DNA of 64,000 nt. Origin: Actinacidiphila yeochonensis CN732. GTDB lineage: Bacteria > Actinomycetota > Actinomycetes > Streptomycetales > Streptomycetaceae. A program made the translations under genes and the position numbers. Position 1 is the stretch's first letter; each line of letters opens with the position of its first letter. The stretch lies in assembly GCF_000745345.1 (NCBI RefSeq), contig NZ_JQNR01000004.1, positions 620,001 to 684,000 of the forward strand, written 5' to 3'. Below the pieces are notes generated by a model, which did no database searches, was not told the DNA's origin, and was given only the letters and a program-made list of their open reading frames with translations. Shown here piece after piece: positions 46,251 to 63,782 of the stretch.

Positions 46251-48179
46251 GTGTCTGTTTACTCGGGCCTGGCCGGGGAGTCCGGGCCGGTCGGTACGGC
46301 CATCGGCTCGGCCCAGGCGTCCGGCCGGGAAGTCGGCGCGGTCGGCGGCGCGCACTGGGACGGCGGTGTCGTGGCCCGGCTGGCCCACTGGGCCGCCACC
46401 GTGCCCGACCAGCCCGCGGTGGGCTTCGTCGCGGACCCTGTGGACGGCGTGGTGGAGCAGCTCACCTACGCCGAGCTGGACGCCCGGGCGCGGGGCCTCG
46501 CCCAGTACCTGCGGAGCCGCATCGACAGGGGCGACCGGGTGCTGCTGCTCTTCGCGCCGAGCCCGGGTTTCCCGGTGGCGTTCGTCGGATGCCTGTACGC
46601 GGGCCTGGTGCCGGTGGTGGCGCCGGTGCCCGACGGCCAGCGGCACCGCGGAGAGCGGCTGCGCGGTGTGGTGGACAGCGCGGGTGCTGCCTGCGTGCTC
46701 ACCGACGCGGCCACCCTCCCGGACATCCGCCAGTGGACCGTCGGCGTCGGCGCGGCCGGGCTGCGGGTGGTCGCCGTCGACACCGACGTGCCGACGCGCG
46801 GCACCTGGACCGTGCCGGACTTCCAGCCGGACGATCCGGCCTTCCTCCAGTACACCTCGGGCTCGACCAGCCAGCCCCGGGGCGTCGTCGTCACCCACGG
46901 CAACATCGCGGCCAACGCCGAGCTCTGCCACCGGCTGACCGGCTGCGACCGCGACTCGCGGTTCGGCGGCTGGCTGCCCATGCACCACGACTTCGGCCTG
47001 CTCTTCCTGCTGCTCTTCCCGCTGTACACGGGCGCACGGACGGTCCACATGTCCGCGTCGGTCTTCCTGCGCCGGCCGTGGAGCTGGCTGCACCTCATCG
47101 ACCGGTTCCGGCTGGACCTCGTGCCCGCGCCGAACTTCGGATTCGAGCTGTGCCTGCGCAGGGTCACCCCCGAGCGGGCGGCCGGCCTGGACCTGTCGTC
47201 GTGGCGGGTGGCCGTGATGGGCGCGGAGCCGGTCCAGCCGGAGACGCTGCGCGGGTTCGTCGACCGGTTCGCGCCCCAGGGGTTCCGCGCCGGCACGCTC
47301 AGCGCGGGCTACGGGCTCGCGGAATCCACTCTGATGGTGACCTGCGAGGTCGGCGCGGTCGAACCCGTGGTGGGGCGGTTCGACGCCGCGGCCCTGGAAC
47401 GCGGAGACCTCGTCCCCGTCCCCGGCTCGCCGACCACCTTGGCCACACCGTCCGGAGCGCTGGAGGGGGCGACCGGACCGGTGCGGGAGCTGGTGCGGTG
47501 CGGGCTTGTCGAGGAGAGCGACGCCGACACGCGGATCGTCGATCCGGCCGACGGGGGCGAACTGCCCGACGGGCGGGTGGGCGAGCTGTGGCTGCGCGGC
47601 CCGAGCGTGGCCGCCGGCTACTGGGGCGATCCGGAGGGGACCGAGCGGGTGTTCGGCGGCCTGACGGCCGCCGGCGAGGGCGGGTTCCTGCGTACCGGGG
47701 ACCTGGCCGTCCGCTTCGAGGGCGGCCTGTACTTCGTCGGCAGGATCAAGGAGATGATGATCATCCACGGCCGCAACCTCTATCCGCAGGACGTCGAGTA
47801 CGAGGCCAGGCTGGCCGAGGAGGCGCTGCGGGGCCTGGTCGGCGCCGCGTTCAGCGTGCCGGTGCCCGAGGAACGGGTGGTGCTGGTCCACGAGGTGCGT
47901 CCCGGCGACGCGGCCGGCCGGATGCCCGAGGTGGCGGCGGCCGTCCGGCGCCGGGTGGCGGAGGAGTTCGGGGTGGCGCTGGCCGGCCTGCTGCTGGTCC
48001 GGCCGGGCGCGGTGCGGCGCACCACCAGCGGCAAGGTACGGCGCGGGTGGGCGCGCGAGGCTTTCCTGCGGGGCGAGTTGCGCCCGCTGTTCAGCGAGGT
48101 CTCGGCCGAGGCGCGGGCGGTCGTCGGCGCCGCCGCCGGCGAGCTCGCGGCCGCCGCGATGCCGGGCGGTGCGCGGTGA
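46251..48179 (+). CDS. Fatty acyl-AMP ligase (FAAL)
   Basis: The 642-residue adenylating enzyme has the A3 loop QYTSGSTSQPRGVVVTHGN (about 200-218), the FAAL signature WLPMHHDFGLL, SAGYGLAESTLMV, GFLRTGDLAV and IIHGRNLYPQDVE. FAALs activate a fatty acid as acyl-AMP and load it on a carrier protein rather than CoA, so it probably provides the acyl starter for the carrier protein at 52221. The GTG at 46251 follows GGGGG. It is the first gene of the cluster and overlaps the next gene (GTGA). Direct motifs support adenylation; acyl chain length is unknown. Confidence 0.93.
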   Translation: MSVYSGLAGESGPVGTAIGSAQASGREVGAVGGAHWDGGVVARLAHWAATVPDQPAVGFVADPVDGVVEQLTYAELDARARGLAQYLRSRIDRGDRVLLLFAPSPGFPVAFVGCLYAGLVPVVAPVPDGQRHRGERLRGVVDSAGAACVLTDAATLPDIRQWTVGVGAAGLRVVAVDTDVPTRGTWTVPDFQPDDPAFLQYTSGSTSQPRGVVVTHGNIAANAELCHRLTGCDRDSRFGGWLPMHHDFGLLFLLLFPLYTGARTVHMSASVFLRRPWSWLHLIDRFRLDLVPAPNFGFELCLRRVTPERAAGLDLSSWRVAVMGAEPVQPETLRGFVDRFAPQGFRAGTLSAGYGLAESTLMVTCEVGAVEPVVGRFDAAALERGDLVPVPGSPTTLATPSGALEGATGPVRELVRCGLVEESDADTRIVDPADGGELPDGRVGELWLRGPSVAAGYWGDPEGTERVFGGLTAAGEGGFLRTGDLAVRFEGGLYFVGRIKEMMIIHGRNLYPQDVEYEARLAEEALRGLVGAAFSVPVPEERVVLVHEVRPGDAAGRMPEVAAAVRRRVAEEFGVALAGLLLVRPGAVRRTTSGKVRRGWAREAFLRGELRPLFSEVSAEARAVVGAAAGELAAAAMPGGAR

Positions 48180-50071
48180 GCCGGGTGGAGACGGCGGAGA
48201 CCACCGCACCTGACGCGGTGGCGGCGGCAGACGCGGCACCTGGTGCGCCCGGGGCGGTCGAGGGGATCACGGCGGACCGGCCGGACGGGGTCGGAGCGGG
48301 CGCTCCCGGGAGGCGCGGGGCACGGCTGGACGTGGCCGCGCTGGAGCTGCTGCTGGCCCGCTCGGTCGAGTTCGCCCCGAGCCGGCTGATGACGCTGGAC
48401 CGGGGGGAGGCGTTCCCCGCCGGGGCGTGCCGGGTGCTGGACGGGGCCGGGTTGCAGCGGTGGTACGTGCCGGCCCGGTTCGGCGGCAGCCTGGACGACT
48501 ACGGCACGCTGCTCGGCCTGCTGCGGACGGTCGCGGCGCACGACCTGAGCGTGGCGGTGGCGCACGCGAAGACGTTCCTCGGCGGCGCCTGCGTGTGGAC
48601 GGCCGGCAGCGCGCCGCAGGCCGACGCGGCGGCGGTGGACGCAGCCCGCGCGCTGGCCCGGCAGATCGAGGCCGGCACCGTGGTCGCGTGGGGGCTGACG
48701 GAGCCCGACCGCGGCGCCGACTTGCTGGCGGGCGAACTGGTAGCTGACCGGGTGGCCGGCGGATACCGTCTGACCGGGGTCAAGTGGCCTGTGAACAACG
48801 CCAGTCGGGCGGACATCGTGACCGTGCTGGCCCGTACCGGCCAGCCGGGCGACCCGCGCGGCTACAGCGTCCTCGTGGTGGACACCCGGGAGGTCCGCTC
48901 CGGGGCCGTCCGGCGGCTGCCGAAGGAGCGCACCCACGGCATCCGGGGCGCGGACATCAGCGGCATCGCCTTCGACGGCGTCGAGGTGGCCGCGGAGTGC
49001 CTGGTGGGCGGCGAAGGGGCCGGTCTCGAACTGGTCCTGGCCTCACTGCAGTTCACCCGACTGGTGTGCGCCGGCCTCTCGTTGGGCGCGGCGGACCACG
49101 CGCTACGGCTGGCCGAGGAGTTCGCCGACGAGCGGGTCCTGTACGGACGGACGGTGGCCTCGTTGCCGCACGCCCGCCGTACCCTCGGCGAGCTGCGCGG
49201 CGGGCGCGCCCTGGCCGAGGCGGTGGCGCTGTTCACGGCTCGCGCCGCGCACACCCTCACCGGTGAGCTGAGCGTGTACTCGGCGGTGGCCAAGGCCCTG
49301 GTGCCCACGCTGGTGGACGAGGTGGTCGAAAAAGCCGGCGAACTGCTGGGCGCCCGCGCGTTCCTGACCGTCGAGCACGCCGACGGAGCGTTCCAGAAGC
49401 TGGAGCGCGACCACCGGATCGTCGGCATCTTCGACGGCAGCACCTTCGTCAACCGGCACGCGTTGATCCGCCAGTTCCCGCGGCTGGCGGCGGCCGCCGC
49501 GCCGGAGGGCCGGGACGAGGCGGGCGTGCGCGCCGCCGCCGGGCTGGGTGCTCCGCTTCCCGAGCCCGGCCCCGTCTCGCTGGTCTCGCGCACCGGGTGC
49601 AGCCTGCTGCGCTCGCTGCCCGAGGCGGTGGCCGCCCTGTGCGCGGGTACGGCGGAAGGCCCCGGCGAGGTGCTCGCGGCCGGCGCCCCGGCCGCCGCCG
49701 CCATGGCCCGGCAGGTGCTGGCCCACGCCGAGCGGCTGCTGCGGGAGCTGGCGGAGCTCGGGCCGCAGCGCGGGGAGGTCGAGCCGGAACTGTTCGCGCT
49801 GGCCGAACGGTACGAGGTGTGCGTGGCGGCGGCCGCCGCGATACGGCTGCACGTGGACGGCGGCTGGGCCGACGGGCGGGTGCTCGCGGGCGCGCTGGCC
49901 GCCGCGGTGGTCCGGCTGGAGCCGGCCGGCACGGGCGCGGCGCCGTCGGCCGCCGGGCTGGTCGGCGCCGTGTTCGACGACCTCGGGCTTGACCGCGCAC
50001 CGGCCCCGGCGGCGGCCGGGCCGCGTGTACTGGTCGCCGCCTCGGCCCGGGCGGGGGAGGAGGCGCGATGA
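48176..50071 (+). CDS. Acyl-CoA dehydrogenase-like protein 1
   Basis: The 631-residue protein has an ACAD fold after a ~45-residue disordered N-terminus: WGLTEPDRGADLLAG (flavin loop TEPxxGxD), a middle beta domain (VKWPVNNASRADIVTVLAR) and a C-terminal helical domain (LVLASLQFTRLVCAGLSLGAA). Around residue 420 the usual catalytic EGT reads FDGST (Asp for Glu). A further ~180 C-terminal residues are helical. It may introduce a double bond into a carrier-bound acyl chain. GTGA overlap with the FAAL gene. Confidence 0.85.
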   Translation: MSRVETAETTAPDAVAAADAAPGAPGAVEGITADRPDGVGAGAPGRRGARLDVAALELLLARSVEFAPSRLMTLDRGEAFPAGACRVLDGAGLQRWYVPARFGGSLDDYGTLLGLLRTVAAHDLSVAVAHAKTFLGGACVWTAGSAPQADAAAVDAARALARQIEAGTVVAWGLTEPDRGADLLAGELVADRVAGGYRLTGVKWPVNNASRADIVTVLARTGQPGDPRGYSVLVVDTREVRSGAVRRLPKERTHGIRGADISGIAFDGVEVAAECLVGGEGAGLELVLASLQFTRLVCAGLSLGAADHALRLAEEFADERVLYGRTVASLPHARRTLGELRGGRALAEAVALFTARAAHTLTGELSVYSAVAKALVPTLVDEVVEKAGELLGARAFLTVEHADGAFQKLERDHRIVGIFDGSTFVNRHALIRQFPRLAAAAAPEGRDEAGVRAAAGLGAPLPEPGPVSLVSRTGCSLLRSLPEAVAALCAGTAEGPGEVLAAGAPAAAAMARQVLAHAERLLRELAELGPQRGEVEPELFALAERYEVCVAAAAAIRLHVDGGWADGRVLAGALAAAVVRLEPAGTGAAPSAAGLVGAVFDDLGLDRAPAPAAAGPRVLVAASARAGEEAR

Positions 50072-50144
50072 CCGCGACGTCCCCTGCGGCGCCCGCCCCC
50101 GGCCGGCGCCGGCCCACCCCCGACCCTCCCGCCCTGGAGCCGAC

Positions 50145-52055
50145 GTGCCCGCTTCACCCCTCGTGCAGGGAGCCCCCGCCGCGCCGCCCGCGACGGGCGG
50201 GTCGGAGATGCCGGAGCGACTCCGGCCCGCGTCCTGGTACGCGGCCGACCCGTCGGCCGGCTACCGTACCGGGCGCGGCGCGGTTCCGTCGGCGGCGGAG
50301 CGGGTGGCGGAGGTCGACCGCCTCTTCGGCGACCCGGCCGAACCGGCCAACGCCCTCGGCCACGCGGCCGTGCTGGCCGCCGACGAGCGGGACGAGCTCT
50401 TCAGCGAGGGCGAGCGCGCCCTGGACCGCTACCGGTTGAGCGCGGAGTTCGTGCCGCGCGAGCTGGGTGGGCGCTTCAGCAGCCTGGAGGACCTCATACG
50501 GGTGATGCGGGTGGTGTTCCGCCGCGACCCCTGCCTCGGACTCGGCTACGGGATCAGCTCGTTCATCGCGTCCGTGAACGTGTGGACGGCCGGCTCCGGC
50601 GACCAGCGCGACTGGCTGGCCGGCCGGCTGCTCGGCGGCGAGAAGGCGTCCTGCGCCTACCACGAGCTGGCCCACGGCAACGACTTCGCCGGCGTGGGGT
50701 TCGCCGCCCGGCGCGGCCCGGAAGGCGACCTGCGGCTCTCCGGGCGCAAGGAGGTCGTCACCAATATGACCCGAGCCCGCGCCATCGTGCTGCTGGCCCG
50801 CACCTCCGACCGCCCCGGCAGCCGCAGTCACTCCCAACTCCTCGTCGACGCCCACGATTTCCCCGCCGACCGGGTGCGGGACCTGCCGCGGTTCCCGAGC
50901 ACGGGCATGCGCGGGGTGCAGCTCGGCGGCATGGAGTTCGACGACTGCCCGGTGCCGGGGGACGCCGTCCTCGGACGGGAGGGCCAGGGCATCGAGACGG
51001 CGCTGCGGTCCTTCCAGCTCACCCGGACCGGCATCCCCGCCATGCTCTGCGGCGGCCTGGACGCCGCGCTCCGGCTCGCCTGCGACTTCACCGCCGAGCG
51101 CAGGCTCTACGGCGGGCGGGCCGCCGACCTGCCGCTGCTGCGGGCGATGCTGGCCGACGCGTTCACCGACCTGCTGATCTGCGACGCCTTCGGCCGTACC
51201 GTCGCCCGCGCCATCCACCTGGTGCCGGACCAGACCAGCGTCTACGCGTCGGCGGTGAAGTACCTCACCGCCGAACGGCTGCTGGGCGCCGTGCACCGGC
51301 TGTCCCTCGTGATGGGCTCCGCGTTCTACCTGCGCCAGGGCCGCTACGGCTACGTCCAGAAGCTGCTGCGCGACCTCAAGCCGGCCGGCTTCGGCCACGC
51401 GGCCAAGGTCGCGTGCCTGGCCACGATGCTGCCCCAACTGCCCCTGCTGGCACGGCGTTCCTGGACCGCCCCCGGTCAGGAAGCCGTTCCCGAGGCGCTG
51501 TTCCGGATCGGCGGCGCGCTTCCGCCGCTGGACTTCGCCCGGCTGCGGGTCGGCAGCAGCGGGCAGGACGCCCTCGTGGACGCGCTGTTCCAGGCCCGGG
51601 ACGCGCTGGCGGCCGGGCAGGCCCCCGCCACCGGGCCCCAGTCGCGCCGACTGGCCGCGCTGGCCGAGGTGTTCTGCGCCGAGGCATCGGACCTGGCCGC
51701 CCGGTGCGCCGCCCTGCCGCCCCGCGAACTCGGTGTGGACGCCACCCCCGAGGCGCTGCGGCTGCCGGCCCGCTACGCCTCCGTCCTGGCCGCCTCCGCC
51801 TGCCTGAACATCTGGTTGCGAGCCGGCTCGAAGGGGACAGCCGACGGTGAAGGCGACACCTGGACCGACGATCCCGCCTGGGCCGTAGCGGCGCTGGAGC
51901 GGCTGGCCGCCGGGCTGGGCCGGACCCCGGACCCGGACGGCGGCACCGCCCCGGCCTCGGCCCGCGCCCTGCGCGAGCACCTGTTCGCGGAGCTGTCGGC
52001 CCGCCACGAAGGGGCCTTCAGCCTCGATCTGGACCGCTACCGGCTGCCGGGCTGA
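50145..52055 (+). CDS. Acyl-CoA dehydrogenase-like protein 2
   Basis: The 636-residue ACAD-type protein is a paralogue of the preceding one, with GYGISSFIASVNVWTAGSG, SGRKEVVTNMTRARAIVLLA, LRSFQLTRTGIPAMLCGGLD and LPLLRAMLADAFTDLLICD. The flavin loop is degenerate (YHELAHGND) and no catalytic EGT segment is seen (RYGYVQKLLRD there), so activity may differ or depend on a partner. The GTG at 50145 has GGAG 6 bp upstream; an ATG at 50208 is possible. An ATGA at 50068 overlaps the upstream stop in another frame, so a further missing base in the C-rich start region cannot be excluded. Confidence 0.8.
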   Translation: MPASPLVQGAPAAPPATGGSEMPERLRPASWYAADPSAGYRTGRGAVPSAAERVAEVDRLFGDPAEPANALGHAAVLAADERDELFSEGERALDRYRLSAEFVPRELGGRFSSLEDLIRVMRVVFRRDPCLGLGYGISSFIASVNVWTAGSGDQRDWLAGRLLGGEKASCAYHELAHGNDFAGVGFAARRGPEGDLRLSGRKEVVTNMTRARAIVLLARTSDRPGSRSHSQLLVDAHDFPADRVRDLPRFPSTGMRGVQLGGMEFDDCPVPGDAVLGREGQGIETALRSFQLTRTGIPAMLCGGLDAALRLACDFTAERRLYGGRAADLPLLRAMLADAFTDLLICDAFGRTVARAIHLVPDQTSVYASAVKYLTAERLLGAVHRLSLVMGSAFYLRQGRYGYVQKLLRDLKPAGFGHAAKVACLATMLPQLPLLARRSWTAPGQEAVPEALFRIGGALPPLDFARLRVGSSGQDALVDALFQARDALAAGQAPATGPQSRRLAALAEVFCAEASDLAARCAALPPRELGVDATPEALRLPARYASVLAASACLNIWLRAGSKGTADGEGDTWTDDPAWAVAALERLAAGLGRTPDPDGGTAPASARALREHLFAELSARHEGAFSLDLDRYRLPG

Positions 52056-52220: not shown

Positions 52221-52517
52221 ATGGCAGAGCAGAGCGGAGTCGGCGCGTCGGAGTTGCGGACGTGGCTGACCGCACGCGTCGCCGAGTACCTGGGCAGGCC
52301 ACCGGAAGAGATAGACGTGACGGCCGACCTCGCCGTGCTGGGACTGGACTCGGTGTTCGCCTTGGCGCTGTGCGGCGACATCGAGCAGCACCTCGACGTC
52401 GTCCTGCAGGACACGGTGGTGTGGGACCACCCCAGCGTCGAAGCGCTGACCTCGTTCCTGACGGAGCTGCCGGCGCTCGCGGGCGACGGGGCCGCCCATG
52501 GTGCGGGCGCCCCGTGA
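52221..52517 (+). CDS. Acyl carrier protein 1
   Basis: The 98-residue carrier protein has the phosphopantetheine site LGLDSVFALAL with Ser44 and the usual helix pattern ending VWDHPSVEALTSFL. Its position beside the FAAL, ACADs and KASIII suggests it carries the fatty acyl chain. AAGGGAG precedes the ATG. The KASIII gene overlaps its end (GTGA). Confidence 0.94.
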   Translation: MAEQSGVGASELRTWLTARVAEYLGRPPEEIDVTADLAVLGLDSVFALALCGDIEQHLDVVLQDTVVWDHPSVEALTSFLTELPALAGDGAAHGAGAP

Positions 52518-53446
52518 CCGCGATAGAGGAAGTGGCCGTGCACCTCCCCTCCACCCGGGTGCCGGTGGCCGAAGTGGGCCGGGAGCTGGGCCTGTCGGAC
52601 AAGGAGGTCCGCGTCTTCGAGCGGTTCTACGGGCTGCGCGAGACGCTCTACGAGCCGGACGCCACCCTGTCCGACCTCGCTCTGGCGGCAGCCGGCAAGG
52701 TGACGTCGCTGATCGGCGAGGAGGACCGGGTCCGCTACGTCATCCAGGCCCGGACCCTGTCCGTGGTGGTGCCCTACCCCGTCAACCCCGTCCAGGAGGT
52801 GCGGGACGCCCTGGGGCTACGGCAGGCATCGGCGTTCAGCGTCACCCAGCACGCCTGCGCGTCGGGGCTGCTCGCGGTTGACCTGGCCGGCCGGCTGCTG
52901 GCCGCCGACGGCGACCCCGACGCCCGGGCACTGGTGCTCACCGGGGAGAAGGCGTTCACCCCCACCGCCCAGATGATCCCCAACACCACGTTCATGGGCG
53001 AGGGTTCGGCCGCCGTGCTGGTACGCGCGGACGGCGACCGGGACCGGGTGCTCAGCTACGCCACCCGCACCCACGGCCAGTTCAACGGGGGCCTGAGTCT
53101 GACGCCGGAGCGCTCCGCGGAGTTCCAGGCGATCTACCAGGACGCGCTGGCCGAGGTGATCACCGCGGCGGTGGACTCCGCCGGGATCACGCTGGGGGAG
53201 CTGGACCTGCTGCTGCCGCACAACGTCAACCGGCACTCCTGGATGCGGCTGTGCAAGGCCATCGGCTACCCGCCGGAGCGGATCTACCTCGACAACGTGC
53301 CGGTCACCGGCCACTGCTTCTGCGCCGACTCCTTCATCAACTACCGCTCGGCCGCCGACCTGGGGCTGCTGCGGCCCGGCGACCGCTACCTGATGGCGGC
53401 GGTCGGCCTGGGCGCCACCTTCTCCGCGATGGTCCTGGAGCACTGA
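52514..53446 (+). CDS. KASIII-type 3-oxoacyl-ACP synthase
   Basis: The 310-residue thiolase-fold enzyme has nucleophile Cys115 (TQHACASGLLAVD) and His236 in LLLPHNVNRHSW. The third FabH residue, Asn in GNTS, is His267 here (VTGHCFCADSF), so the triad is atypical. Canonical KASIII enzymes start chains by condensing acyl thioester with malonyl-ACP; variants do acyl transfer. It probably acts on the acyl or aminoacyl carrier proteins of the cluster and may pair with the Cys-less homologue at 56659. The GTG at 52514 overlaps the carrier protein stop. Confidence 0.9.
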   Translation: MTAIEEVAVHLPSTRVPVAEVGRELGLSDKEVRVFERFYGLRETLYEPDATLSDLALAAAGKVTSLIGEEDRVRYVIQARTLSVVVPYPVNPVQEVRDALGLRQASAFSVTQHACASGLLAVDLAGRLLAADGDPDARALVLTGEKAFTPTAQMIPNTTFMGEGSAAVLVRADGDRDRVLSYATRTHGQFNGGLSLTPERSAEFQAIYQDALAEVITAAVDSAGITLGELDLLLPHNVNRHSWMRLCKAIGYPPERIYLDNVPVTGHCFCADSFINYRSAADLGLLRPGDRYLMAAVGLGATFSAMVLEH

Positions 53447-54991: not shown

Positions 54992-56293
54992 ATGAGCGAG
55001 GGGTTCCGCGTGCAGGGCATCGCGGTCCAGGAGCTGGCGGAGCGCTACGGCACCCCGCTGTACGTCTACGACGGCGACGCGCTGGAGCAGCAGTACAGGG
55101 GGCTGCGGGATCGGCTGCACCCGGCGGTGGAGATGTTCTTCTCCCTGAAGGCCAATCCGAACCTGTCGGTGTGCACGGTGCTGCGCGGCCTGGGCGCCCG
55201 CGCCGAGGTCTCCTCCCTGGCGGAGCTGGTGACGGCGCTGCGGGCCGGGGTGCCCGCCGAGGACGTCATCTTCCTGGGCCCCGGCAAGTCCCGCGCCGAA
55301 CTCGCGGCGTGCCTGGACGAGGGCATCCGCGCCATCGTGTGCGAGTCGCCCGGCGAGCTGGCCGTCATCGACGAGCTGGCCCGCGAGCGGGGCGTCACCG
55401 CGCCGGTCATGCTGCGCGTCAACCCGGACTTCCAGGCCCGTGGTGCCGGCCTGCGGATGGGCGGCAAGCCCCGCCAGTTCGGCATCGACGAGGCGCAGTT
55501 GCTCCAGGACCCCGACCTGGCCGGACGCCACCCGCACGTACGGTTGACGGGCGTGCACGCCTACCTCGGCACCCGCATCCTCGACCCGCAGGTCGTGGTG
55601 GAGAACACCACCCGCATCCTGGACCTGGCCGAGCGGCTCTCCGCGGTCCTCGGCATCGACCTGGACCTGGTCGACATCGGCGGCGGACTCGGCGTCGCCT
55701 ACTTCGAGGGCGAGCACGACCTCGACCCGGCGGAGCTCACCGACGCCCTCAACCCGGTGCTGGCGGACTTCCACCAGCGCCACCCCGAAACCCGGCTGAT
55801 CATGGAGCTGGGCCGCTACCTGACCGCCCCGGCCGGCACCTACGTCACCCGGGTCGAGTACACGAAGACGTCGATGGGTGAGAACTTCGCCATCGCCGAC
55901 GGCGGTACCAACCACCACATGGCCGCGGTGGGCGTCGGCTCGTTCGTCAAGCGGAACTTCCCGATGGCGCTGCTGAGCCGGCCCGACGCGGTGCCCGAGG
56001 GCACCTGGCAGGTCACCGGCCCGCTGTGCACCCCCAACGACACCCTCGGCAAGAACCTCGCCCTGCCCGAGCTGCGCCCCGGCGACCTCGTCGGCGTCCT
56101 GCGCTCGGGCGCCTACGGGCCCACCGCCTCACCGGTGCACTTCCTCAGCCACGGCTACCCGGCCGAGGTGCTGGTGCACCGCGGCCGCGACTACCTGGTC
56201 CGCGAACGCGACGGGGTCGAGGACCTGCTGGGCCGCCAGCCCGTGCACCAGGAACTGCGGTCCGCCCCCGTCGCGGCCGACCGTGGCGAGTAG
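54992..56293 (+). CDS. PLP-dependent fold-III decarboxylase, BtrK/LysA-like
   Basis: The 433-residue protein belongs to the diaminopimelate/ornithine decarboxylase family: PLP Lys53 in FFSLKANPN, the glycine loop DIGGGLGVAYFEG (about 228-240), ELGRYL (272-277) and catalytic Cys346 in GPLCTPND. BtrK, its best functional parallel, decarboxylates glutamyl-carrier protein to a 4-aminobutyryl thioester. Placement between the ligase and the carrier protein supports decarboxylation of a carrier-bound amino acid rather than lysine synthesis. The ATG follows AGGAGGGG. Confidence 0.87.
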   Translation: MSEGFRVQGIAVQELAERYGTPLYVYDGDALEQQYRGLRDRLHPAVEMFFSLKANPNLSVCTVLRGLGARAEVSSLAELVTALRAGVPAEDVIFLGPGKSRAELAACLDEGIRAIVCESPGELAVIDELARERGVTAPVMLRVNPDFQARGAGLRMGGKPRQFGIDEAQLLQDPDLAGRHPHVRLTGVHAYLGTRILDPQVVVENTTRILDLAERLSAVLGIDLDLVDIGGGLGVAYFEGEHDLDPAELTDALNPVLADFHQRHPETRLIMELGRYLTAPAGTYVTRVEYTKTSMGENFAIADGGTNHHMAAVGVGSFVKRNFPMALLSRPDAVPEGTWQVTGPLCTPNDTLGKNLALPELRPGDLVGVLRSGAYGPTASPVHFLSHGYPAEVLVHRGRDYLVRERDGVEDLLGRQPVHQELRSAPVAADRGE

Positions 56294-56351: not shown

Positions 56352-56654
56352 ATGACGGACAGCAGCACCACCACCGCGGCGGCCGGTACCGGCGACCCGG
56401 CCACCGTCGAGGTGGACGTGATCGGCAGCGTGACCGCGGCCCTGGCCCGCGTCCTGAAACGCGACCCGGCCGAGATCACCCCCGACACCCGCCTCTTCGA
56501 CGACCTGGGCCTGGACTCCACCAGCGTGCTGGAACTCCTGCTGGAGCTGGAGACCGAGCTGGGCTGCGAGTTCGACTCCGACTCGCTGGAGCAGGAGCAC
56601 TTCGAGACGGTCAGCAGCCTGGCCGGCTACCTGTCCGCTCAGGTCAGCGGGTAG
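56352..56654 (+). CDS. Acyl carrier protein 2 (BtrI-like position)
   Basis: The 100-residue carrier protein has DLGLDSTSVLELLLELE with the phosphopantetheine Ser56 after a ~20-residue flexible N-terminus, and the helix III acidic region ending VSSLAGYLSAQ. Neighbouring ligase and decarboxylase genes suggest it carries the amino-acid-derived thioester. AAGGAG precedes the ATG. A KASIII-like gene follows after 4 bp. Confidence 0.94.
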   Translation: MTDSSTTTAAAGTGDPATVEVDVIGSVTAALARVLKRDPAEITPDTRLFDDLGLDSTSVLELLLELETELGCEFDSDSLEQEHFETVSSLAGYLSAQVSG

Positions 56655-56658
56655 CGCG

Positions 56659-57744
56659 GTGCATCTTCTACCACCCCCAGGACGCGGACCCGGTCCCGGT
56701 CCCGGTCTCGGTCCGACCCGCCCTCCGCACCGCCTGCCGCTGCGGCTCGCGGCGGTCATCTCCAGGCAGTTCGACGGGACCCGCCCGCTCGACGACGACG
56801 GGATCAGCCGCTACCTGTCCGACGTGACGGGCGCGTACGGCGCGCCCGACGCGGCCCGGGGCGCGACGGAGCTGGCCGGGCGCCCCGTCAGCTCCTTCGC
56901 CGCCATGGCCGTCGAGGTGCTGGCCGACGCCGGCGCCGAGGCGGCGCCGGACGCGGTTCCCCCGGACGGCCCTGCCGCTCCGGACCCCGCCGCGGCCGGC
57001 CCGGTCCGCCGGCGGCGCGGGAGCGGCATCGGGCAGATCGTGCTCGCGCACGCCACGCCCGACATCGACCCGCGCGCCTCGGCGGCCTGCTACCTGGTCG
57101 ACTCCGACCCGGGCCGCCCGCTGGCCTTCTGCCTCTCCGACCAGGGAGTGGGCGCGCCGTTCCTCGCGGTGCGGGTGGCGGGCGAGTACCTGCGCGACGC
57201 CGACCGCGGCCGCGCGCTGGTGGTCGTGCTCGACCAGAGCGCCGTGCCCTGGCCGGTGCCCGACGGCACCCGGCTGCCGATACGCGACCTCGCCGTGGGC
57301 CTCGTGCTGGACTACGACGACAGCGCTGACGCCGCCGACCGCGCCGGCGGCGCGGACGGCCAGGCCGGCTCCGGCACCGAGCGGGCGGCGTCCGGCACGG
57401 GCGCCGACCCCGCAGGGCACGGCGGGGGCCTGGCCCTCCAGCAGTGGCCGGACGTCGGCCCGGACCAGATGGCGGGCGCCCTCACGGGCTACCTGGACTC
57501 GGTCCGCGGGCGGTTCGGCGGCCCGGTGACGCTGGTGCTCGGCCAGGGGGTGCCCGAGGCCCCCGCGGAACGGGTCGAGCGCGGTGATCCGGACGGCCTG
57601 TGCACCTCCGTCTGGACGACGCTGCACCGGCTGGTCACCGACCACGACGGCTCGGACGGTGCGGCGGTCACCTTCGTCCTCGCCGAGTACGACCCGTCGC
57701 TGCGCCAGCTCAGCGCGGCCGCGATCCGCTGGGAGGGAGCATGA
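56659..57744 (+). CDS. KASIII-like protein lacking the catalytic cysteine
   Basis: The 361-residue protein aligns with the KASIII at 52514 around the nucleophile: AFCLSDQGVGAPFLAVRVAG here against AFSVTQHACASGLLAVDLAG there, which puts Val164 where Cys115 is. No His/Asn pair is evident later. It is probably a non-catalytic thiolase-fold partner, like chain-length factors of type II ketosynthases. The N-terminus from the GTG at 56659 is Pro/Gly-rich and has no good ribosome site, so the true start is uncertain. ATGA overlap with the next gene. Confidence 0.68.
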   Translation: MHLLPPPGRGPGPGPGLGPTRPPHRLPLRLAAVISRQFDGTRPLDDDGISRYLSDVTGAYGAPDAARGATELAGRPVSSFAAMAVEVLADAGAEAAPDAVPPDGPAAPDPAAAGPVRRRRGSGIGQIVLAHATPDIDPRASAACYLVDSDPGRPLAFCLSDQGVGAPFLAVRVAGEYLRDADRGRALVVVLDQSAVPWPVPDGTRLPIRDLAVGLVLDYDDSADAADRAGGADGQAGSGTERAASGTGADPAGHGGGLALQQWPDVGPDQMAGALTGYLDSVRGRFGGPVTLVLGQGVPEAPAERVERGDPDGLCTSVWTTLHRLVTDHDGSDGAAVTFVLAEYDPSLRQLSAAAIRWEGA

Positions 57745-58535
57745 CACCGATGACCCCGGCCGCCGCGCCGCACCGCCCGGCCGCCGTCGCGTCCGCGGGG
57801 GATGCGGACGCGGGGGCGCGGCCCGAAGGCCCCCGGGAGTCCGCTCGGCGCGGCGCTCTCGTCGAGGGTTGGGAGGCGCTGCGCGCCGCCGCCGGTGCGA
57901 CCGGACCGGTCTACGGCCCCTCCGGCCACGCCCTGGAGGCCCGTCCTGCGACGGCCGCACGGACCTCGGCGGAGCAGGCCCCGGAAGACCCGGCCGGCGC
58001 CCGCGTCCTGAGGTCTTTGGAGTGCGCGGGCGCCCGCTGGACGCTTCTCGCCGCCCCCCCGGACGTCGAACCGGCCCCGGCCGGAGCCGACTGGCTGCTG
58101 GGCGTCGCCCGACTGCGGCTGGGGGTCTCGGAGTGGCTGCGCGACCAGGCCGTCGCCCACCTCAGCGCACGCACCTCCGGTGGTACGCCGCTGGTGCGCA
58201 TGCAGTTGGTGCTCGCCGCACTGGCCGACGCGGCAGCGGCCCACCTGGAGGCCGCGGTCCTGCTGGACGTCGCGCCCCTCTCGGGCGCCGGGGCCGCACC
58301 CGGCGGTGCCGAGGCGGCGTCCGGCCCGGCGGACGCACCCCCGGCCGTGGAGCCCGGACAGGTGAGACCCACCGGGTTCCCCGGGCTGGACCACGTCCAC
58401 CACCGCATCACCCGGGCCGACCGCGAACTGCTGCGGCTGTTCGGGGCGAGCGGCTTCCTCTCGGACGGCCCCGGACAGCGGGCCCATCTGTCCGAGCTGC
58501 TGGCGTCGATGTGTCTGGAAGGCGGGAACCGGTGA
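57741..58535 (+). CDS. ACAD C-terminal-domain-like helper protein
   Basis: The 264-residue protein starts with ~40 disordered residues. Residues about 115-175 resemble the helical C-terminal domain of acyl-CoA dehydrogenases (SGGTPLVRMQLVLAALADAA), and FGASGFLSDGPGQRAHLSEL near the end matches the last ACAD helix region. The flavin-binding N-terminal and middle domains are absent. It overlaps both neighbours (ATGA and GTGA) and may be a non-catalytic subunit of the ACAD at 58532. The homology call is by eye. Confidence 0.6.
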   Translation: MTPMTPAAAPHRPAAVASAGDADAGARPEGPRESARRGALVEGWEALRAAAGATGPVYGPSGHALEARPATAARTSAEQAPEDPAGARVLRSLECAGARWTLLAAPPDVEPAPAGADWLLGVARLRLGVSEWLRDQAVAHLSARTSGGTPLVRMQLVLAALADAAAAHLEAAVLLDVAPLSGAGAAPGGAEAASGPADAPPAVEPGQVRPTGFPGLDHVHHRITRADRELLRLFGASGFLSDGPGQRAHLSELLASMCLEGGNR

Positions 58536-59683
58536 TCGAGCTGGACGAGCGGCTGCTCAGGCTGCGCGCCGAGGCCCGCGACTGGGCGGACGAACTGAGG
58601 CCGCACGCACTGGAGCTGGACGCCGATCCGGAGCTGGTCCGGCGCATGCTCCACCTGCGCGCGGTGCGCTACGTCTCCCGCATGATGGTGCCCGCCGAGC
58701 ACCAGCCCGACCCGCTGCTGATCGGCCCGCACGCCTACTACGGCACCACGGCCCTGGAGCGGGCGATCGTCGCGGAGGAGCTGGCCTGCGGGGACCCGGG
58801 CATGTTCCTCGCCTCGCCCGGGGCGTCGCTGTCCGGAGTCCTCGTCGGCCTGCTCGGCGACCCCGAGCAGCAGAAGTGGTTCTTCGGCCGGATCGTCGAG
58901 GAGCCCACGTGGACCTTCTTCGGCCTGACCGAGCCGGGCCACGGGTCGGACGCCACCGCCCTGCAGACCTCGCTGACGGCGGTGCCCGGCGGCCTCCGGC
59001 TCGACGGTGAGAAGCGGTACGCCGGCAACGCGGCACGGGCCGGGATCGGTACGGTCTTCGCCCGAACCGGGAAGGGGCCGCTGGGGGTGGCCGCCGTGCT
59101 GGTGGACTCCTCGCAGGAGGGCTTCCACGCCGAGCCGCTGCCGATGATCGGCCTGCGCGGGGCGCGGATCAGCGCGATCCGGTTGGACGGGGTCGAGATC
59201 GCCCCCGAGCGGGTGCTCGGCCGCCACCTGCCGGTCAGCGCCCGGGGCATGCGCGGAGCAATGCTGACGTTCCATCAGTTCCGACCGGGGGTAGCGGCGT
59301 TGGCGCTGGGAATCGCCCGGGCCGCGCAGGAGTACGGAACGGCCCACCGGGAGTCCCTCGACGCCGCGGGTCGCGCCGAACTGGAGCGGATCGGGCGGGA
59401 GGTGGACGCCACCCGCCAACTGGTCTGGGCGGCGGCCCTGTCGGTGGACCGCGACCCGCACAGGGGCGTGTACGCCTCGGCGGCCAAGGCCCGGGCGGCT
59501 CAGCTGGCCGAGCAGGCCACCCTCAGGGTGACCGAACTCCTCGGTCCCGGAGCCCTGTTCGACCACCCGCTGCTGGACAAGCTGGTGCGGGACGCCAGAG
59601 GTGTGGAGTTCATGGAGGGTACGAGCAACATCCAGCGGCTGAACCTCGGGCAGGCCGTGGCGGGCGGGAGGCTGGAAGGGTGA
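58532..59683 (+). CDS. Acyl-CoA dehydrogenase 3 (canonical active site)
   Basis: The 383-residue protein is a normal-length ACAD: FFGLTEPGHGSDATALQ (flavin loop), GGLRLDGEKRYAGNAARAG, RGMRGAMLTFHQFRPGVAAL, and the catalytic Glu in VEFMEGTSNIQRL near the C-terminus. It should oxidise an acyl thioester to the 2,3-enoyl form using FAD. Of the ACAD-like proteins in the cluster it is the only one with all usual catalytic features. Overlaps of 4 bp on both sides show tight coupling with the helper and with the MATE gene. Confidence 0.92.
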   Translation: MIELDERLLRLRAEARDWADELRPHALELDADPELVRRMLHLRAVRYVSRMMVPAEHQPDPLLIGPHAYYGTTALERAIVAEELACGDPGMFLASPGASLSGVLVGLLGDPEQQKWFFGRIVEEPTWTFFGLTEPGHGSDATALQTSLTAVPGGLRLDGEKRYAGNAARAGIGTVFARTGKGPLGVAAVLVDSSQEGFHAEPLPMIGLRGARISAIRLDGVEIAPERVLGRHLPVSARGMRGAMLTFHQFRPGVAALALGIARAAQEYGTAHRESLDAAGRAELERIGREVDATRQLVWAAALSVDRDPHRGVYASAAKARAAQLAEQATLRVTELLGPGALFDHPLLDKLVRDARGVEFMEGTSNIQRLNLGQAVAGGRLEG

Positions 59684-61239
59684 GCGAGTGGCGGAAGGTG
59701 GGCGCCCTCGCCGCTCCCATCACCCTCGCCGAGATCGTCGGCGTCGCGGTCCCGCAGGTCGTGGTCGGCCTGATGAGCGCGATGGGCGCGGAGGCACTGT
59801 ACGTGCGCTCGCTCTTCGCCCCGGTGCTCTTCGTCTTCCTCGCGGTGCAGGCGGGAGTCGGGGTCAGCGCCCAGGTCGCCGCCGCCCGCCTGGCCGGCGG
59901 GCCGCCCGGCGGCCAGGAAGGGCGGGAAACGGGGCCCGTCGCGGGGCCGTGGGGGATCGCGGTCTCCATGGCCCGGGTCGGCGTCGCGGCCAGCGCCGTC
60001 GCGGCCGTGGCGCTCGCGCTCGCCGCCCCGCTGCTGGCCGACGCGCTGTCCGTACGCCCGTCCGTGCGCGGCGACTTCGAGTGGTTCGTGCGCTGGGTGT
60101 GCCTGGCGAGCCTGGCGTCGGTCGGCCCGGTGGTGTGCTCGTCCGTGCTGCGCGGCGCCGGCCGGGCGCGCGCGTCGGTGCTGGTGCTGCTCGGTTCGGC
60201 GACGGCCGAGGTCGCCGGCGTCGCGGTGCTCGGGCTGCCGGGCGCCGTCGGCTGGGGCATGTGGTCGGTGCCGTGCGCGGTGGCCGGCTCCGGGCTGCTG
60301 GGCACCGCGGTCGGCCTGGCCGTCATGCGCCGTGCCGGTCTCACCCCGGGCAGGTCCAGGAGGGGCACCAGGCCGCCGCGGCCCGAGGTGCGCGGACTCG
60401 TGACACAGGTCGGCGGGCCGGTGGCGGCGTCGTTCCTGGTGATCTTCGTCAGCAGCTCGGTGATGACCTGGGTGGCCAGCGGCTACGGCAGCACGGTGGT
60501 GTCCGGCTTCGCCGTGGCCTACACGATGCAGACGATGGTGATCGTGCCCGGTATCGCCATCGGCTCGGCCACCGCGATCACCGTCAACCACTACCGGGGC
60601 CAGGGCCGGGAGGACCGGGCGGAGCCGGTGGTCCGCGCCGGGCTGGGCCTGGCCGCGGTGGTCTACGTGGTGCTGGCGGCCGGGTGCTGGCTCGGCCGCG
60701 ACAGCCTGGCCGGCCTGGTCACCGGCGACCCCGCGGTCGCCCACCAGGCCGAGCGCTACCTCGGGCTGGTCGCCCCCACCTACCTGGTGATGGGCGTGGT
60801 GCTGGCCGCGCTGACCGCGCTGGAGCAGATCGGCGGCGGCCCGCTGGCCGCGACGCTCAACGTGGTGTACTTCGCCGGCACCTGCGCGGTGGGTGCCGTC
60901 TGGGCCCGGCAGGCCGGCCAGATCGTCGACCTGTACCGGACCGTCGCGGTCGCCAACATCCTGGGCGTGGCGGTCGTCCCCGTCGCGCTGGGCTTCGTCC
61001 GCCGCGCCCGGGCCGCGTCCACAGCGGCCGCCCCGCCACCAGGGGCGGAACCGGCCACCGGGTTCCGCGCGGCGGAACCCGCCGCCCCGTCACCCGCGGC
61101 AGCCGGACCGGCCGCTGCCCCGCCGCGCCGCGCCGAGGACGGCTCCGCCGTCGCGCCGGCCCCCGAGCCGCTCCTGCACGCCGAAGGCGTCCGGCCGGGG
61201 CGCGCGGCCACCGCATTCCGATCCGAAGGAGACGACTGA
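59680..61239 (+). CDS. MATE-family efflux transporter
   Basis: The 519-residue membrane protein has about twelve helices in two MATE halves (APITLAEIVGVAVPQVVVG; then AASFLVIFVSSSVMTWVAS) and a long Ala/Pro-rich cytoplasmic tail. MATE proteins export drugs and metabolites using H+ or Na+ gradients. Inside the cluster it is the likely exporter and self-protection gene. The GTG at 59680 overlaps the ACAD stop. Confidence 0.9.
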   Translation: MSEWRKVGALAAPITLAEIVGVAVPQVVVGLMSAMGAEALYVRSLFAPVLFVFLAVQAGVGVSAQVAAARLAGGPPGGQEGRETGPVAGPWGIAVSMARVGVAASAVAAVALALAAPLLADALSVRPSVRGDFEWFVRWVCLASLASVGPVVCSSVLRGAGRARASVLVLLGSATAEVAGVAVLGLPGAVGWGMWSVPCAVAGSGLLGTAVGLAVMRRAGLTPGRSRRGTRPPRPEVRGLVTQVGGPVAASFLVIFVSSSVMTWVASGYGSTVVSGFAVAYTMQTMVIVPGIAIGSATAITVNHYRGQGREDRAEPVVRAGLGLAAVVYVVLAAGCWLGRDSLAGLVTGDPAVAHQAERYLGLVAPTYLVMGVVLAALTALEQIGGGPLAATLNVVYFAGTCAVGAVWARQAGQIVDLYRTVAVANILGVAVVPVALGFVRRARAASTAAAPPPGAEPATGFRAAEPAAPSPAAAGPAAAPPRRAEDGSAVAPAPEPLLHAEGVRPGRAATAFRSEGDD

Positions 61240-61240
61240 C

Positions 61241-62811
61241 GTGGCGGAGACGACACGGCACCACCTGCCGGTCCGAGGCGGCCGGTCCGCCACCGCACCG
61301 GCCACCTGGGGCCAGCGCAGCATCTGGACCGACATCGAGTACATGATGCCGGACACGTCCTTCTACAACTCGACGCTCTTCGTGGACGTGCCACCGGGGG
61401 CGTCCCGGGAGGGGGTGTTCGCCGCCCTCACCGCCACCGTGGCCCGGCACGACTCGCTGCGCACGCTCTTCCAGCAAGCGCAGGCCCCGGCGCCGTCCGA
61501 CGCGGGGCCGGCGGACTCCGGAGCGCCGACCGCCGGCCGGGGGGCTCTGACACAGACGGTGGAGGCGGAGGGGAGCCTGGCCGTCGACGTCGTCGAGGCG
61601 TACACGGACCGCGACGACCTTGCCGAGGTTGCCGGCCGGATGGACGCCGAGGTCACCTCGCACCGCTTCGACCACGCGCGGGAGTGGCCGGTGCGGGCGA
61701 CGGTCGGCGTGGTGGACGGGGCGATCGTGGTGGTCGGCCTGTGCCTGTCGCACCTCGCCGCCGACAACGGCAGCCTCCGCGTGGTGCGGCGGGACCTGGA
61801 ACAACTGCTGCGCGTGGCCGGCTCCGCCGAGGGCGTCCGTGCCGCGGCGGCCGGCCTCCCGGCCCCCGGCCTCCAGCCGGTGGAGCTGGCCGAGGAGGAG
61901 GGGTCCCCCTCCGGACAGCGGATGCTCGACAAGGCCCTGGAGCACTGGCGCGGCGAGCTGGCCGCCATGCCGCCCACCGTCTTCCCCGGGCCGCCGCTGC
62001 CGCCGGAGTCCCCCGCTACCCGGCCCTGTGGCTGCGCTCGCGGGCCGTCGCGCTGGCCGCCGACGCGCTGGCGCTGCGGCACGGTGCCAGCAGCTCCGTC
62101 GTGCTGCTGGCCGCCACGGCACTGCTGCTCGGCCGGAACGGAGGCACCGACCGCGCCGCTCTGGTCCTCATCTCCGGCAACCGCACCGGGCCCGCGCTCG
62201 CGGGCTTCGTCGGCAACCTGGTCCAGGACGTCCTCGCCACCGTGGACCTTTCCGGCCCGACGTTCGGCGACGTCGTGCGCGCGGCCTGGGGCGTGTCCGT
62301 ACGCGCCTACCGCAACGGCCGCTGCGACCGCGAGCAGTTCACCGCGCTGCGTGCTCGGGCCGCCGTCGAGCGCGGCTCCGAACTGGAGTTGACGTGCTAC
62401 TTCAACGACGTGCGCGGCGCCACCCGTCCCGCCGCCGAGTCCTGCGACGCGGCAGGGGTGCGGGCCGCGACCACGAGGACGACCACCGGCGAGGGCCCCG
62501 GCACCGAGCGGGACAACCTGTCGTTCTTCCTGCGCGTCGGCGCGTGGGGACCGAACGACGAGCAGGTCGAGCTGTCCGTGCGGGCGGACTCCTGCCGGCT
62601 GCCGCGCGAGCGGATACGGGAACTGCTCAGCGGCGTGGAGGCGCTGCTGGTGGCGGCGGTGGAGCGGCCCGGCGAGCCGGTGGCGTCCCTGCTGGCCTCC
62701 CTCCCCGGCGCCGACGCGGACGTCTCACCGTCCGGGCCGGACCCCGAGCCCGAGGCCGCGACCGTGCCGGAGCCGCAGGCGCGACCCGTGGACGCGGGTG
62801 CCCTCGGGTGA
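61241..62811 (+). CDS. Stand-alone NRPS-type condensation protein, apparently frameshifted at 62010-62014
   Basis: The N-terminal frame (TWGQRSIWTDIEYMM, ARHDSLRTLF, LCLSHLAADNGSL) and the C-terminal frame (SSVVLLAATALLLGRNGG, LISGNRTGPALAGFVGNLV, ELTCYFNDVRG) are both condensation-domain sequence but out of register. One extra C in the five-C run at 62010-62014 restores about 523 residues. The catalytic motif reads SHLAADN instead of HHxxxDG; the second His and the Asp are kept. It would form an amide between acyl and aminoacyl carrier substrates. The GTG at 61241 follows GAAGGAG. Confidence 0.82.
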
Positions 62812-63782
62812 GCGGCCCGCCCACCCTCCTGCCGGCCGGCCACGTCCACGTGTGGTGCGTCCCGCTCGACGCGCCCTCCGGCCCCGGCCCCGCACCGGGT
62901 GCCCTCGTCCGGGTGCCGGGGCCCGCGCCGGGGTCGCGCCGGGACGCCTCCGGCCTCCGCCGTCCGGCGGTCGGCGCGCTCCGGGAGCCCGGTGGCGCGA
63001 CCCGGCGTGCCGCGCCACCGGAACGGGCAGCCCCGGACGAGCCGGCGCCGGACCGCGCCCGGCGGCCCGACCCGGGGTGCGCCGGTGGCGGCCCGGGACA
63101 GTGCGCCTGCGGGTGCGCGGGGCCCGGCGCGGTCTGGTGCGCGGCGGACTGGCTGGACGCCGAGGAGCGCGCGCGGGCGGCCCGCACCGCGCCGGGGGAG
63201 CCGCGCCGCCGCTACGTCCACTCCCACGCGGCGGTTCGGATGATCACGGCCGGGTACCTCGGCACGCCGCCTGAGCGCGTGGTGTGGCGGCGCGGCCCGA
63301 ACGGCAAGCCGGTGCCGGTCGTGGACGGCGCCGCGCTGCATGTCAACCTCTCCCACTCCGGCGGCCTGGCGCTGTTCGCGGTGGCCCGCCGAGAGGTGGG
63401 GGTGGACGTCGAGGCGGTGCGGGTCGTGCCGTCGGCGCTGCGGCTGGCCGCCCGGTTCCTGCCGGAGGAGGAGGCGGCGGCGGTCGCCGCGGCCGGTCCC
63501 GGCAGGTCGGGGATCCTGCTGCGGCTGCTCGCCCGCAAGGAGGCGTGTGTGAAGGCGTCCGGCGGGCGGCTGACGCACGGGTTGCGGCTGCCGGTCGGCG
63601 AGCCGCCGACCCCGGACGGCTGGCGCCCGGTCGCGGGCACCCCGGGCGGCGGACCGGGGCCGGGTCGGTGGAGCGTGCGCGACCTGCCCGTACCCGCCGG
63701 CTACACCGCGGCCGTGGCTGTCCTGGGCGCGGGCCGGCCCCGGCTGTCGGTGCGGACGTGGACGGGCTTCCCGTCGCCGTGA
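62808..63782 (+). CDS. 4'-phosphopantetheinyl transferase, Sfp type
   Basis: The 324-residue protein has Sfp-type motifs: LHVNLSHSGGLALFAV, the Mg-binding REVGVDVEAVR and the LLARKEACVKASGG (KEA) helix. It transfers phosphopantetheine from CoA to carrier proteins, here probably the two in this cluster. A ~100-residue Pro/Gly-rich N-terminal stretch separates the first strand from the rest, longer than usual. The GTG overlaps the condensation gene stop. It is the last gene of the cluster. Confidence 0.92.
   Translation: MSGPPTLLPAGHVHVWCVPLDAPSGPGPAPGALVRVPGPAPGSRRDASGLRRPAVGALREPGGATRRAAPPERAAPDEPAPDRARRPDPGCAGGGPGQCACGCAGPGAVWCAADWLDAEERARAARTAPGEPRRRYVHSHAAVRMITAGYLGTPPERVVWRRGPNGKPVPVVDGAALHVNLSHSGGLALFAVARREVGVDVEAVRVVPSALRLAARFLPEEEAAAVAAAGPGRSGILLRLLARKEACVKASGGRLTHGLRLPVGEPPTPDGWRPVAGTPGGGPGPGRWSVRDLPVPAGYTAAVAVLGAGRPRLSVRTWTGFPSP

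Follow-up and report, generated by a model that had tools for sequence, protein, structure and literature searches.

We analysed a 64,000-nucleotide stretch of the 7.8 Mb genome of Actinacidiphila yeochonensis CN732 (contig NZ_JQNR01000004.1, positions 620,001 to 684,000; hereafter the window), in which 14 plus-strand genes at 46251–63782 form a candidate biosynthetic cluster (Table 1). These genes and the families assigned to them in the initial annotation, which was made from the sequence alone, were borne out by Pfam and NCBIfam matches and by structure models. Thirteen of the 14 genes are single open frames, the exception being the condensation gene. The junctions had been described as mostly 4-bp overlaps, but this applies to only six of the 13; at the remaining seven, the genes are separated by 1, 4, 23, 58, 73, 109 and 165 bases, a count that depends on the uncertain start of the second acyl-CoA dehydrogenase (ACAD)-like gene. 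Based on gene content, it is nearly certain that the cluster consists of two starter kits, one for a fatty acyl chain (46251–52517) and one for an amino acid (52514–59683). We consider it moderately probable that these kits work in series as a pathway to a small fatty enamide that is free of non-ribosomal peptide synthetases (NRPSs).

Table 1. Genes of the cluster and of its downstream flank (window positions)
Feature	Position	Strand	Family match or remark
FAAL (fatty acyl-AMP ligase)	46251..48179	+	PF00501; FAAL models, 337–351 bits
ACAD1, long acyl-CoA dehydrogenase-like	48176..50071	+	PF00441/PF02770
ACAD2, long acyl-CoA dehydrogenase-like	50145..52055 (start codon uncertain)	+	PF00441/PF02770
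ACP1, acyl carrier protein (ACP) of the FAAL kit	52221..52517	+	PF00550
β-Ketoacyl-ACP synthase III (KAS III)-type protein, proposed N-acyltransferase (AutS/AfcL-like role)	52514..53446	+	PF08541
ATP-grasp ligase	53556..54968	+	PF18604 (pre-ATP-grasp), 70 bits; PF02222, 28 bits
BtrK-like pyridoxal phosphate (PLP) decarboxylase	54992..56293	+	Best PDB match BtrK (2j66/7ru7), 331 bits
ACP2, carrier of the amino acid kit	56352..56654	+	PF00550
Cys-less KAS III-like protein	56659..57744	+	No Pfam/NCBIfam match; predicted model
Truncated ACAD-like protein	57741..58535	+	PF00441, E 0.015, under cut-off; predicted model
ACAD3	58532..59683	+	PF00441/PF02770
MATE exporter	59680..61239	+	PF01554, 78 bits
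Stand-alone condensation protein, two frames	61241..62811	+	PF00668, each frame under cut-off
Phosphopantetheinyl transferase	62808..63782	+	PF01648, 35 bits
LuxR regulator	64090–64944, past window end		Downstream of cluster
P450	65064–66602, past window end		Downstream of cluster

The first kit is headed by the FAAL, the sole AMP-binding protein among the 14 genes, whose scores against FAAL models compare with 131 bits against the general acyl-CoA ligase model, all of them under the curated cut-offs. The catalytic-base position of ACAD1 held Asp in all 15 sequences compared, while that of ACAD2 held no acid in any of 15 (His in 14 and Tyr in one); this difference suggests that ACAD1 and ACAD2 function as a pair. 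The modified Ser of ACP1 was kept in 24 of 24 sequences. The comparisons with characterized systems draw in part on published work (PMC7756342, PMC12186527, PMC9113097, PMC8552735, PMC12843350, PMC10880069 and PMC11204786). The order FAAL, ACAD, ACAD, ACP is that of RthH-RthI-RthJ-RthK for rotihibin, and two ACAD genes also stand between the FAAL and ACP genes for taromycin and malacidin, whose acyl chains are delta-2,4 dienoic; the first four genes of the window cluster thus form a known kind of starter module. These results support the FAAL loading and carrier-bound desaturation put forward in the initial annotation. In the lipopeptide systems the chain passes to an NRPS, whereas in the window it faces the second kit and a condensation protein encoded separately; an NRPS with a starter condensation domain was not matched near the window, where the only condensation protein is the stand-alone one.

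The first kit also occurs without the second. In a phylum sample of 396 genomes, including that of A. yeochonensis, the KAS III-type protein was matched at E 1e-50 in three and ACAD2 at E 1e-70 in six, and no genome besides our own contained both. Two genomes (G010 and G518) carry FAAL, ACAD1, ACAD2 and ACP1 in the window order, with no NRPS-like DNA in the 40 kb at each locus. A third (G018) carries the same four genes, with the FAAL last, adjoining an NRPS, and two more (G012 and G014) carry only a relative of ACAD2.

Within the second kit, the decarboxylase matched BtrK of butirosin biosynthesis well ahead of any other solved structure (331 bits vs 196 bits for the next), which supports the carrier-bound decarboxylated amino acid of the initial annotation. 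Against 85 relatives from clusters of this kind, the window decarboxylase showed 58–73% identity in the best aligned segment, and the Asp-Ser motif of ACP2 was present in 85 of 85 sequences. As in the butirosin set BtrI-BtrJ-BtrK, in which BtrJ is the ATP-grasp ligase, an ATP-grasp protein and a PLP decarboxylase stand beside an ACP. The butirosin pathway joins its unit to an aminoglycoside; no aminoglycoside gene was recognized among the genes scanned in the window cluster and its downstream flank.

The KAS III-type protein kept one Cys, two His and one Asp in all 84 sequences aligned. The catalytic triad of FabH is Cys/His/Asn. In an alignment with PDB sequences, the Thr-Gly-His-x4-Asp motif of the window protein coincided with that of CerJ, and His occupied the position of the FabH Asn, which favours acyl transfer. 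A decarboxylative condensing role was set aside, the Asn position being His in 84 of 84 sequences. The Cys/His/Asp set, in place of the Cys/His/Asn of FabH, is that found in the KAS III-like acyltransferases CerJ, ChlB3 and AfcL.

The remaining proteins of this kit were assessed mainly by structure models, built on 38 of 77 orthologues for the Cys-less KAS III-like protein and on 35 of 75 for the truncated ACAD-like protein. For the former, the KAS III-like fold given in the initial annotation was supported by the model (pLDDT 83.8), although no Pfam or NCBIfam model matched the protein. The VIA Z values of 21.6 to ChlB3 and 19.9 to PqsBC are so close that they do not rank families, and many other KAS III-fold entries score equally. 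PqsBC pairs a KAS III-fold protein that has the Cys with one that lacks it, and serves alkylquinolone synthesis; the likeness to its chains is a resemblance only. In a weak profile comparison (E 0.008, probability 5%), Val164 of the window protein stood opposite the KAS Cys, and V, T, S, P and R together filled this column in 32 of 38 rows. A Cys was found nearby at position 158 in the window protein, at 162 in three of 38 and at 165 in eight of 38; the window protein is thus likely to be Cys-less, a status not proven across all relatives. The model of the truncated ACAD-like protein (pLDDT 81.9) gave VIA Z values up to 13.6 to ACADs, a level that helical proteins reach more easily, and its matches included the hetero-complexes ChsE4-ChsE5, Fic32-33 and Tcur3481-3483. 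The catalytic-base position of ACAD3 held Glu in 75 of 77 sequences and Asp in the other two.

We next consider the recurrence of the two kits. A relative of the ATP-grasp protein was present in 16 of 245 genomes of the order, own genome included. A scan of genome_contigs with the same protein yielded 170 relatives, of which the best 80 were analysed, so that the counts on 80 loci describe the closest half. All 14 genes recurred in the same order in one genome of the order sample (G061) and in Micromonospora phaseoli (L059), and the seven genes of the second kit (hereafter the core), a cassette widespread among actinobacteria, occurred together in 57 of the 80 loci (KAS III 71, ATP-grasp 80, decarboxylase 69, ACP2 68, Cys-less KAS III-like protein 65, truncated ACAD-like protein 59 and ACAD3 60). 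This is far beyond chance. A FAAL was present in 23 of the 80 loci, 13 of which also carried ACAD1 and ACAD2, as do G061 and the window; the ten FAAL loci lacking this pair were eight of the Cellulosimicrobium group, one of Thermobifida (L085) and one of Actinomadura (L098). A FAAL was absent from 48 loci that carried the second kit, complete or incomplete, or from 57 when those with the ATP-grasp gene alone are included. A MATE match was found in 14 of the 23 FAAL-bearing loci vs two of the 57 others. In a tree of 84 KAS III-type proteins, three locus labels were clustered, with four changes vs 23.2 in shuffles and none of 200 shuffles as low; label A includes L098, despite its lack of matches to ACAD1 and ACAD2. 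M. phaseoli was the row nearest to the window, with the forks around the window left open, and two long branches (L085 and L138) met. Streptomyces sp. AC1-42W carries two clusters (L108 and L138), each with FAAL, ACAD1, ACAD2 and the core. In the loci of G009 and G025 (L045–L048), several copies of the KAS III-type protein, ACAD3, truncated ACAD-like protein and ACP2 surround one ATP-grasp/decarboxylase pair, and these copies perhaps serve more than one dehydro residue.

The distribution of NRPSs differed between the loci with and without a FAAL. NRPS-like DNA, searched with one query (the NRPS of G123) at E 1e-30 in loci with flanks of at most 10 kb, was detected in 29 of the 48 FAAL-less core loci and in all nine ATP-grasp-only loci (38 of 57 together), and in none of the 23 FAAL-bearing loci, of the 40 kb of G061 or of the 102 kb around the window. 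This last negative also concerns the NRPS for a Phe-Dpr-Dpr-Gly ring (Dpr, diaminopropionate) expected of an enamidonin-type cluster. The possibility that the window cluster is a piece of an NRPS or polyketide synthase (PKS) locus was rejected because no NRPS was matched; the 102 kb were not scanned with PKS models, but their coding-like frames of at least 900 aa outside the cluster numbered three, two rhamnosidase-like proteins and one RHS-repeat protein. The nine ATP-grasp-only loci (L069, L075, L076, L081, L102, L104, L105, L119 and L121) belong to Amycolatopsis.

Some of the NRPS loci beside FAAL-less cores have features that fit dehydro-β-alanine peptides. At a distance of about 12 kb or less from the core, five of ten FAAL-less genomes of the same family (G062, G123, G138, G165 and G194) carry an SbnA-type gene, for diaminopropionate, that scores over the cut-off; such a gene was found somewhere in ten of 16 genomes searched, and over the cut-off in none of 14 control genomes or in the own genome. 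The codes of adenylation (A) domains were read by a pattern script in ten loci, with some positions unread and the last letter added by the script, and were compared with the known codes for Phe and Gly. G062 gave two equal codes, one Gly-like code and one beginning DAW, while G194, G138 and L113 each gave one Gly-like and one Phe-like code. In G123, S. decoyicus, G165, L118, L128 and L127, one code was close to the repeated code of G062, and the first three of these had a second code beginning DAW. The codes of G062, G194, G138 and L113 fit enamidonin-type peptides, which have the sequence Phe-Dpr-Dpr-Gly with an N-acyl dehydro-β-alanine. Olenamidonins also contain dehydro-β-alanine, and the proposed role of their KAS III (AutS homologue) is the ligation of acyl-CoA to this residue while bound to an ACP; the autucedine paper (Org. 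Lett. 2022) refers to such synthetases in its title.

Compared by gene content rather than by the aut sequences, the aut/ole systems of Streptomyces olivaceus (enamidonin, autucedine and olenamidonin) resemble the window in combining a KAS III-type N-acyltransferase, proposed to act on carrier-bound dehydro-β-alanine, with a decarboxylase, an ACP and an ACAD in one set; the window has all seven core genes, and some FAAL-less relatives of its core carry both the fitting NRPS codes and an SbnA-type gene. They differ in that aut/ole pass the acylated unit on to an NRPS, with acyl-CoA as the proposed acyl source, whereas the window encodes a FAAL of its own, two further ACADs and another ACP. A second likeness is to bolagladin and AFC-BC11 of Burkholderia, which also employ a decarboxylase on a carrier-bound acidic amino acid, KAS III-like enzymes and an ACAD for dehydro-β-alanine. 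For bolagladin, BolN is BtrK-like, deletion of the ACAD gene bolQ gave the β-alanine form, and an amide-forming role is proposed for a KAS III-type protein. For AFC-BC11, carrier-bound Asp was shown to be a substrate of the decarboxylase AfcP, and the KAS III-like protein AfcL, whose triad is Cys/His/Asp, transfers a β-alanine trimer to lysyl-CoA in vitro with formation of an amide bond; this system, too, has a FAAL and is without condensation domains. Unlike the window, in which an ATP-grasp protein takes the loading place, both use a VinN-type A domain for Asp; in addition, BolM and BolP have Ser/Thr instead of Cys, and AFC-BC11 contains a dehydro-β-alanine trimer. As far as the searches reached, the statement in the initial annotation that no characterized cluster has this gene set held for the complete set; each half, however, has characterized relatives. 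The parts and both kits are of known kinds. No description of the two kits combined in the absence of an NRPS was found in the literature searched, most subscription journals lying outside its coverage.

What the data show directly is the genes with their homologies and conserved residues, the recurrence of the modules and the absence of an NRPS match in the neighbourhood; the chemical steps that follow, as well as the amino acid, the acceptor and the product, are inferred. The FAAL would adenylate a free fatty acid and load it on ACP1, where ACAD1 and ACAD2 would introduce one or two double bonds, as in the lipopeptide clusters with the order FAAL-ACAD-ACAD-ACP. In parallel, the ATP-grasp protein would load an acidic amino acid on ACP2, most likely L-Asp via its side-chain carboxyl, and the BtrK-like decarboxylase would convert it to β-alanyl-S-ACP2. 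The KAS III-type protein, probably paired with its Cys-less partner as in PqsBC, would take the acyl chain on its Cys and transfer it to the amine, and ACAD3 with its truncated partner would convert the product to N-acyl-3-aminoacryloyl-S-ACP2, a dehydro-β-alanine enamide. The assignments of the KAS pair as amide-former and of ACAD3 as enamide-former are probable, and are held with somewhat more confidence than the pathway as a whole; Asp is likely to be the amino acid in preference to Glu. The stand-alone condensation protein, in place of the first condensation domain of an NRPS, would then pass the enamide group to an acceptor not evident from the window, and the P450 and the MATE protein may oxidize and export the product, respectively. 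This agrees with the initial annotation as to product class, an unsaturated N-acyl amide. Its parts list stood, but it had overlooked that the condensation gene changes frame, that a step to a dehydro-amino acid is likely and that the genes form two kits.

Several observations weigh against this pathway. The link of the window to dehydro-β-alanine rests on cluster context, and BtrK, the nearest solved relative of the decarboxylase, acts on Glu. No NRPS DNA was detected within the flanks of at most 10 kb in 19 of the 48 FAAL-less core loci, although with flanks so short an NRPS may lie further off. The A-domain codes of G123, S. decoyicus and G165 are less like those expected for enamidonin, and those of L118, L128 and L127 are less clear. 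Nine of the 80 loci have the ATP-grasp gene alone, and L098 has a FAAL and the core with no match to ACAD1, ACAD2 or ACP1. The condensation gene was not seen in the flanks read of L060, L071, L072 and L129, the last on a short contig, and among the nine FAAL-bearing Cellulosimicrobium and Thermobifida loci, read with short flanks, it was found in L085 only; the condensation step is therefore not universal. The FAAL-less G009, G011 and G025 have a condensation-like gene near the core, with 0, 0 and 1,550 bases of NRPS-like DNA, which the division between FAAL and NRPS loci does not explain. Finally, the condensation gene of the window is interrupted, and if the sequence is correct at this point, product formation may fail in this strain.

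The alternative with most in its favour, though unlikely, is that the amino acid is Glu, as in butirosin. The second carrier would then hold a γ-aminobutyryl thioester (GABA-S-ACP2), from which ACAD3 would give an N-acyl 4-aminocrotonyl thioester, or the amino acid would not be dehydrogenated at all. This is favoured by the action of BtrK on glutamyl-ACP and by the loader, an ATP-grasp protein like BtrJ rather than the VinN-type A domain of bolagladin and AFC-BC11. However, the identity of the decarboxylase (58–73%) extends to relatives of which some are FAAL-less and stand beside NRPSs that fit dehydro-β-alanine peptides. A glutamate/GABA product was rejected as first choice and retained as a rival to Asp.

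The initial annotation had assigned the joining of acyl chain and amino acid to the condensation protein, which would leave the KAS III pair another task, such as chain elongation. Daptomycin-type lipopeptides do rely on CIII-type condensation domains for the attachment of FAAL-loaded chains to amino acids, but the KAS III core recurs in FAAL-less loci, in which a stand-alone condensation match was found in one of 57. Furthermore, three FAAL clusters (L060, L071 and L072) contain the KAS pair, yet their flanks, as far as read, showed no condensation gene, the Asn of FabH is replaced by His in the KAS III-type protein, and KAS III-type proteins are given an amide-forming role in olenamidonin/autucedine and bolagladin, as proposed, and in AFC-BC11, as shown in vitro. 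Joining by the condensation protein is thus quite improbable, and this protein more likely acts after acyl chain and amino acid have been coupled by the KAS pair.

The condensation gene itself was recognized in the initial annotation as to family but not as to reading frame. Two overlapping frames matched the N- and C-terminal parts of PF00668 (25 and 18 bits vs a cut-off of 30.6 bits), and the third-position GC shifted from one frame to the other near 62,010, beside a run of C. The motif of the window protein is Ser-His-x3-Asp; of 12 aligned rows, ten keep its His and all 12 its Asp. A condensation match was found in 12 of the 16 clusters examined (14 genome_contigs loci, 11 of them with longer flanks, G061 and the window), that of L091 being weak and that of L062 ending at the locus edge. 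Runs of C are a usual place of assembly errors. That the frame change killed the pathway and the locus is a decaying remnant in this strain is likewise quite improbable, since the other 13 frames are open, the gene is uninterrupted in G061, L059, L074, L078, L098, L100, L101 and L138, and the break lies beside such a run. A frame change at about the same place was seen in L108, from a different organism, while these eight relatives are uninterrupted; the shared change may be an assembly error, decay or something else.

With regard to the acceptor, genes near the FAAL clusters of L062, L074, L078, L098, L100, L101 and L129 were grouped by similarity, and varying sets were found. An inositol monophosphatase-family gene lay near six of these seven clusters (five family-scanned and confirmed), a class III aminotransferase near six (four confirmed), a Gfo/Idh dehydrogenase near five (two confirmed) and a sulfotransferase near four (one confirmed). 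An inositol-3-phosphate synthase adjoins L078, and a similar frame adjoins L101. These genes possibly supply an aminocyclitol or amino sugar. An aminocyclitol acceptor is only a lead, since the dehydrogenase fell far short of the cut-off of its best NCBIfam model, inositol 2-dehydrogenase, and the synthase may have a housekeeping function. In the own genome, a search without a positive control gave no match to the inosamine-subgroup aminotransferase at E 1e-60. Tentatively, and at less than even chances, we propose an unrecognized actinobacterial family of NRPS-free conjugates, in which the stand-alone condensation protein would move an N-(unsaturated acyl)-3-aminoacryl group from the carrier to a free amine. 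In a subgroup of Actinomadura, Actinoplanes, Streptosporangium and Microbispora, this amine would be an aminoinositol made by the inositol-phosphatase-like, Gfo/Idh and class III aminotransferase gene products, while the window would belong to a P450-bearing subgroup.

In all likelihood, two starter kits of lipopeptide pathways thus work here as a stand-alone pathway. If the enamide assignment is true, an orphan class of small fatty enamides, with acceptors varying by subgroup, is encoded in a number of actinobacterial genomes, and genome mining centred on NRPSs may pass over such clusters. The cluster also offers a compact system for the study of acceptance by a free condensation protein, of amide bonds made by KAS III-type enzymes, and of the roles of the Cys-less KAS III-like and truncated ACAD-like proteins.

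The cluster probably extends beyond the window end into the LuxR and P450 genes. LuxR-type genes of nine clusters grouped with this LuxR. The best relative of the P450, 49.5% identical over 428 aa, lies in the M. phaseoli genome directly upstream of the homologous cluster. A P450 common to G061 and L091 was considered and rejected, as the grouped matches scored under other P450s of the same genomes, and only M. phaseoli was therefore counted as sharing it. Further downstream of the P450, a subtilase and the RHS-repeat protein were found among other frames. Upstream, window positions 23831–34120 encode the two large alpha-L-rhamnosidase-like proteins, which are unrelated to the cluster. Among the flanks of the FAAL loci (L139–L149), a polysaccharide deacetylase-like gene stands beside the cluster of L062. 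A gene at L140:7751-14563, on the downstream side of the Actinomadura xylanilytica cluster and several kb away from it, encodes a large protein that combines ketosynthase, acyltransferase, ketoreductase and nitronate monooxygenase-like domains and probably belongs to a separate pathway.

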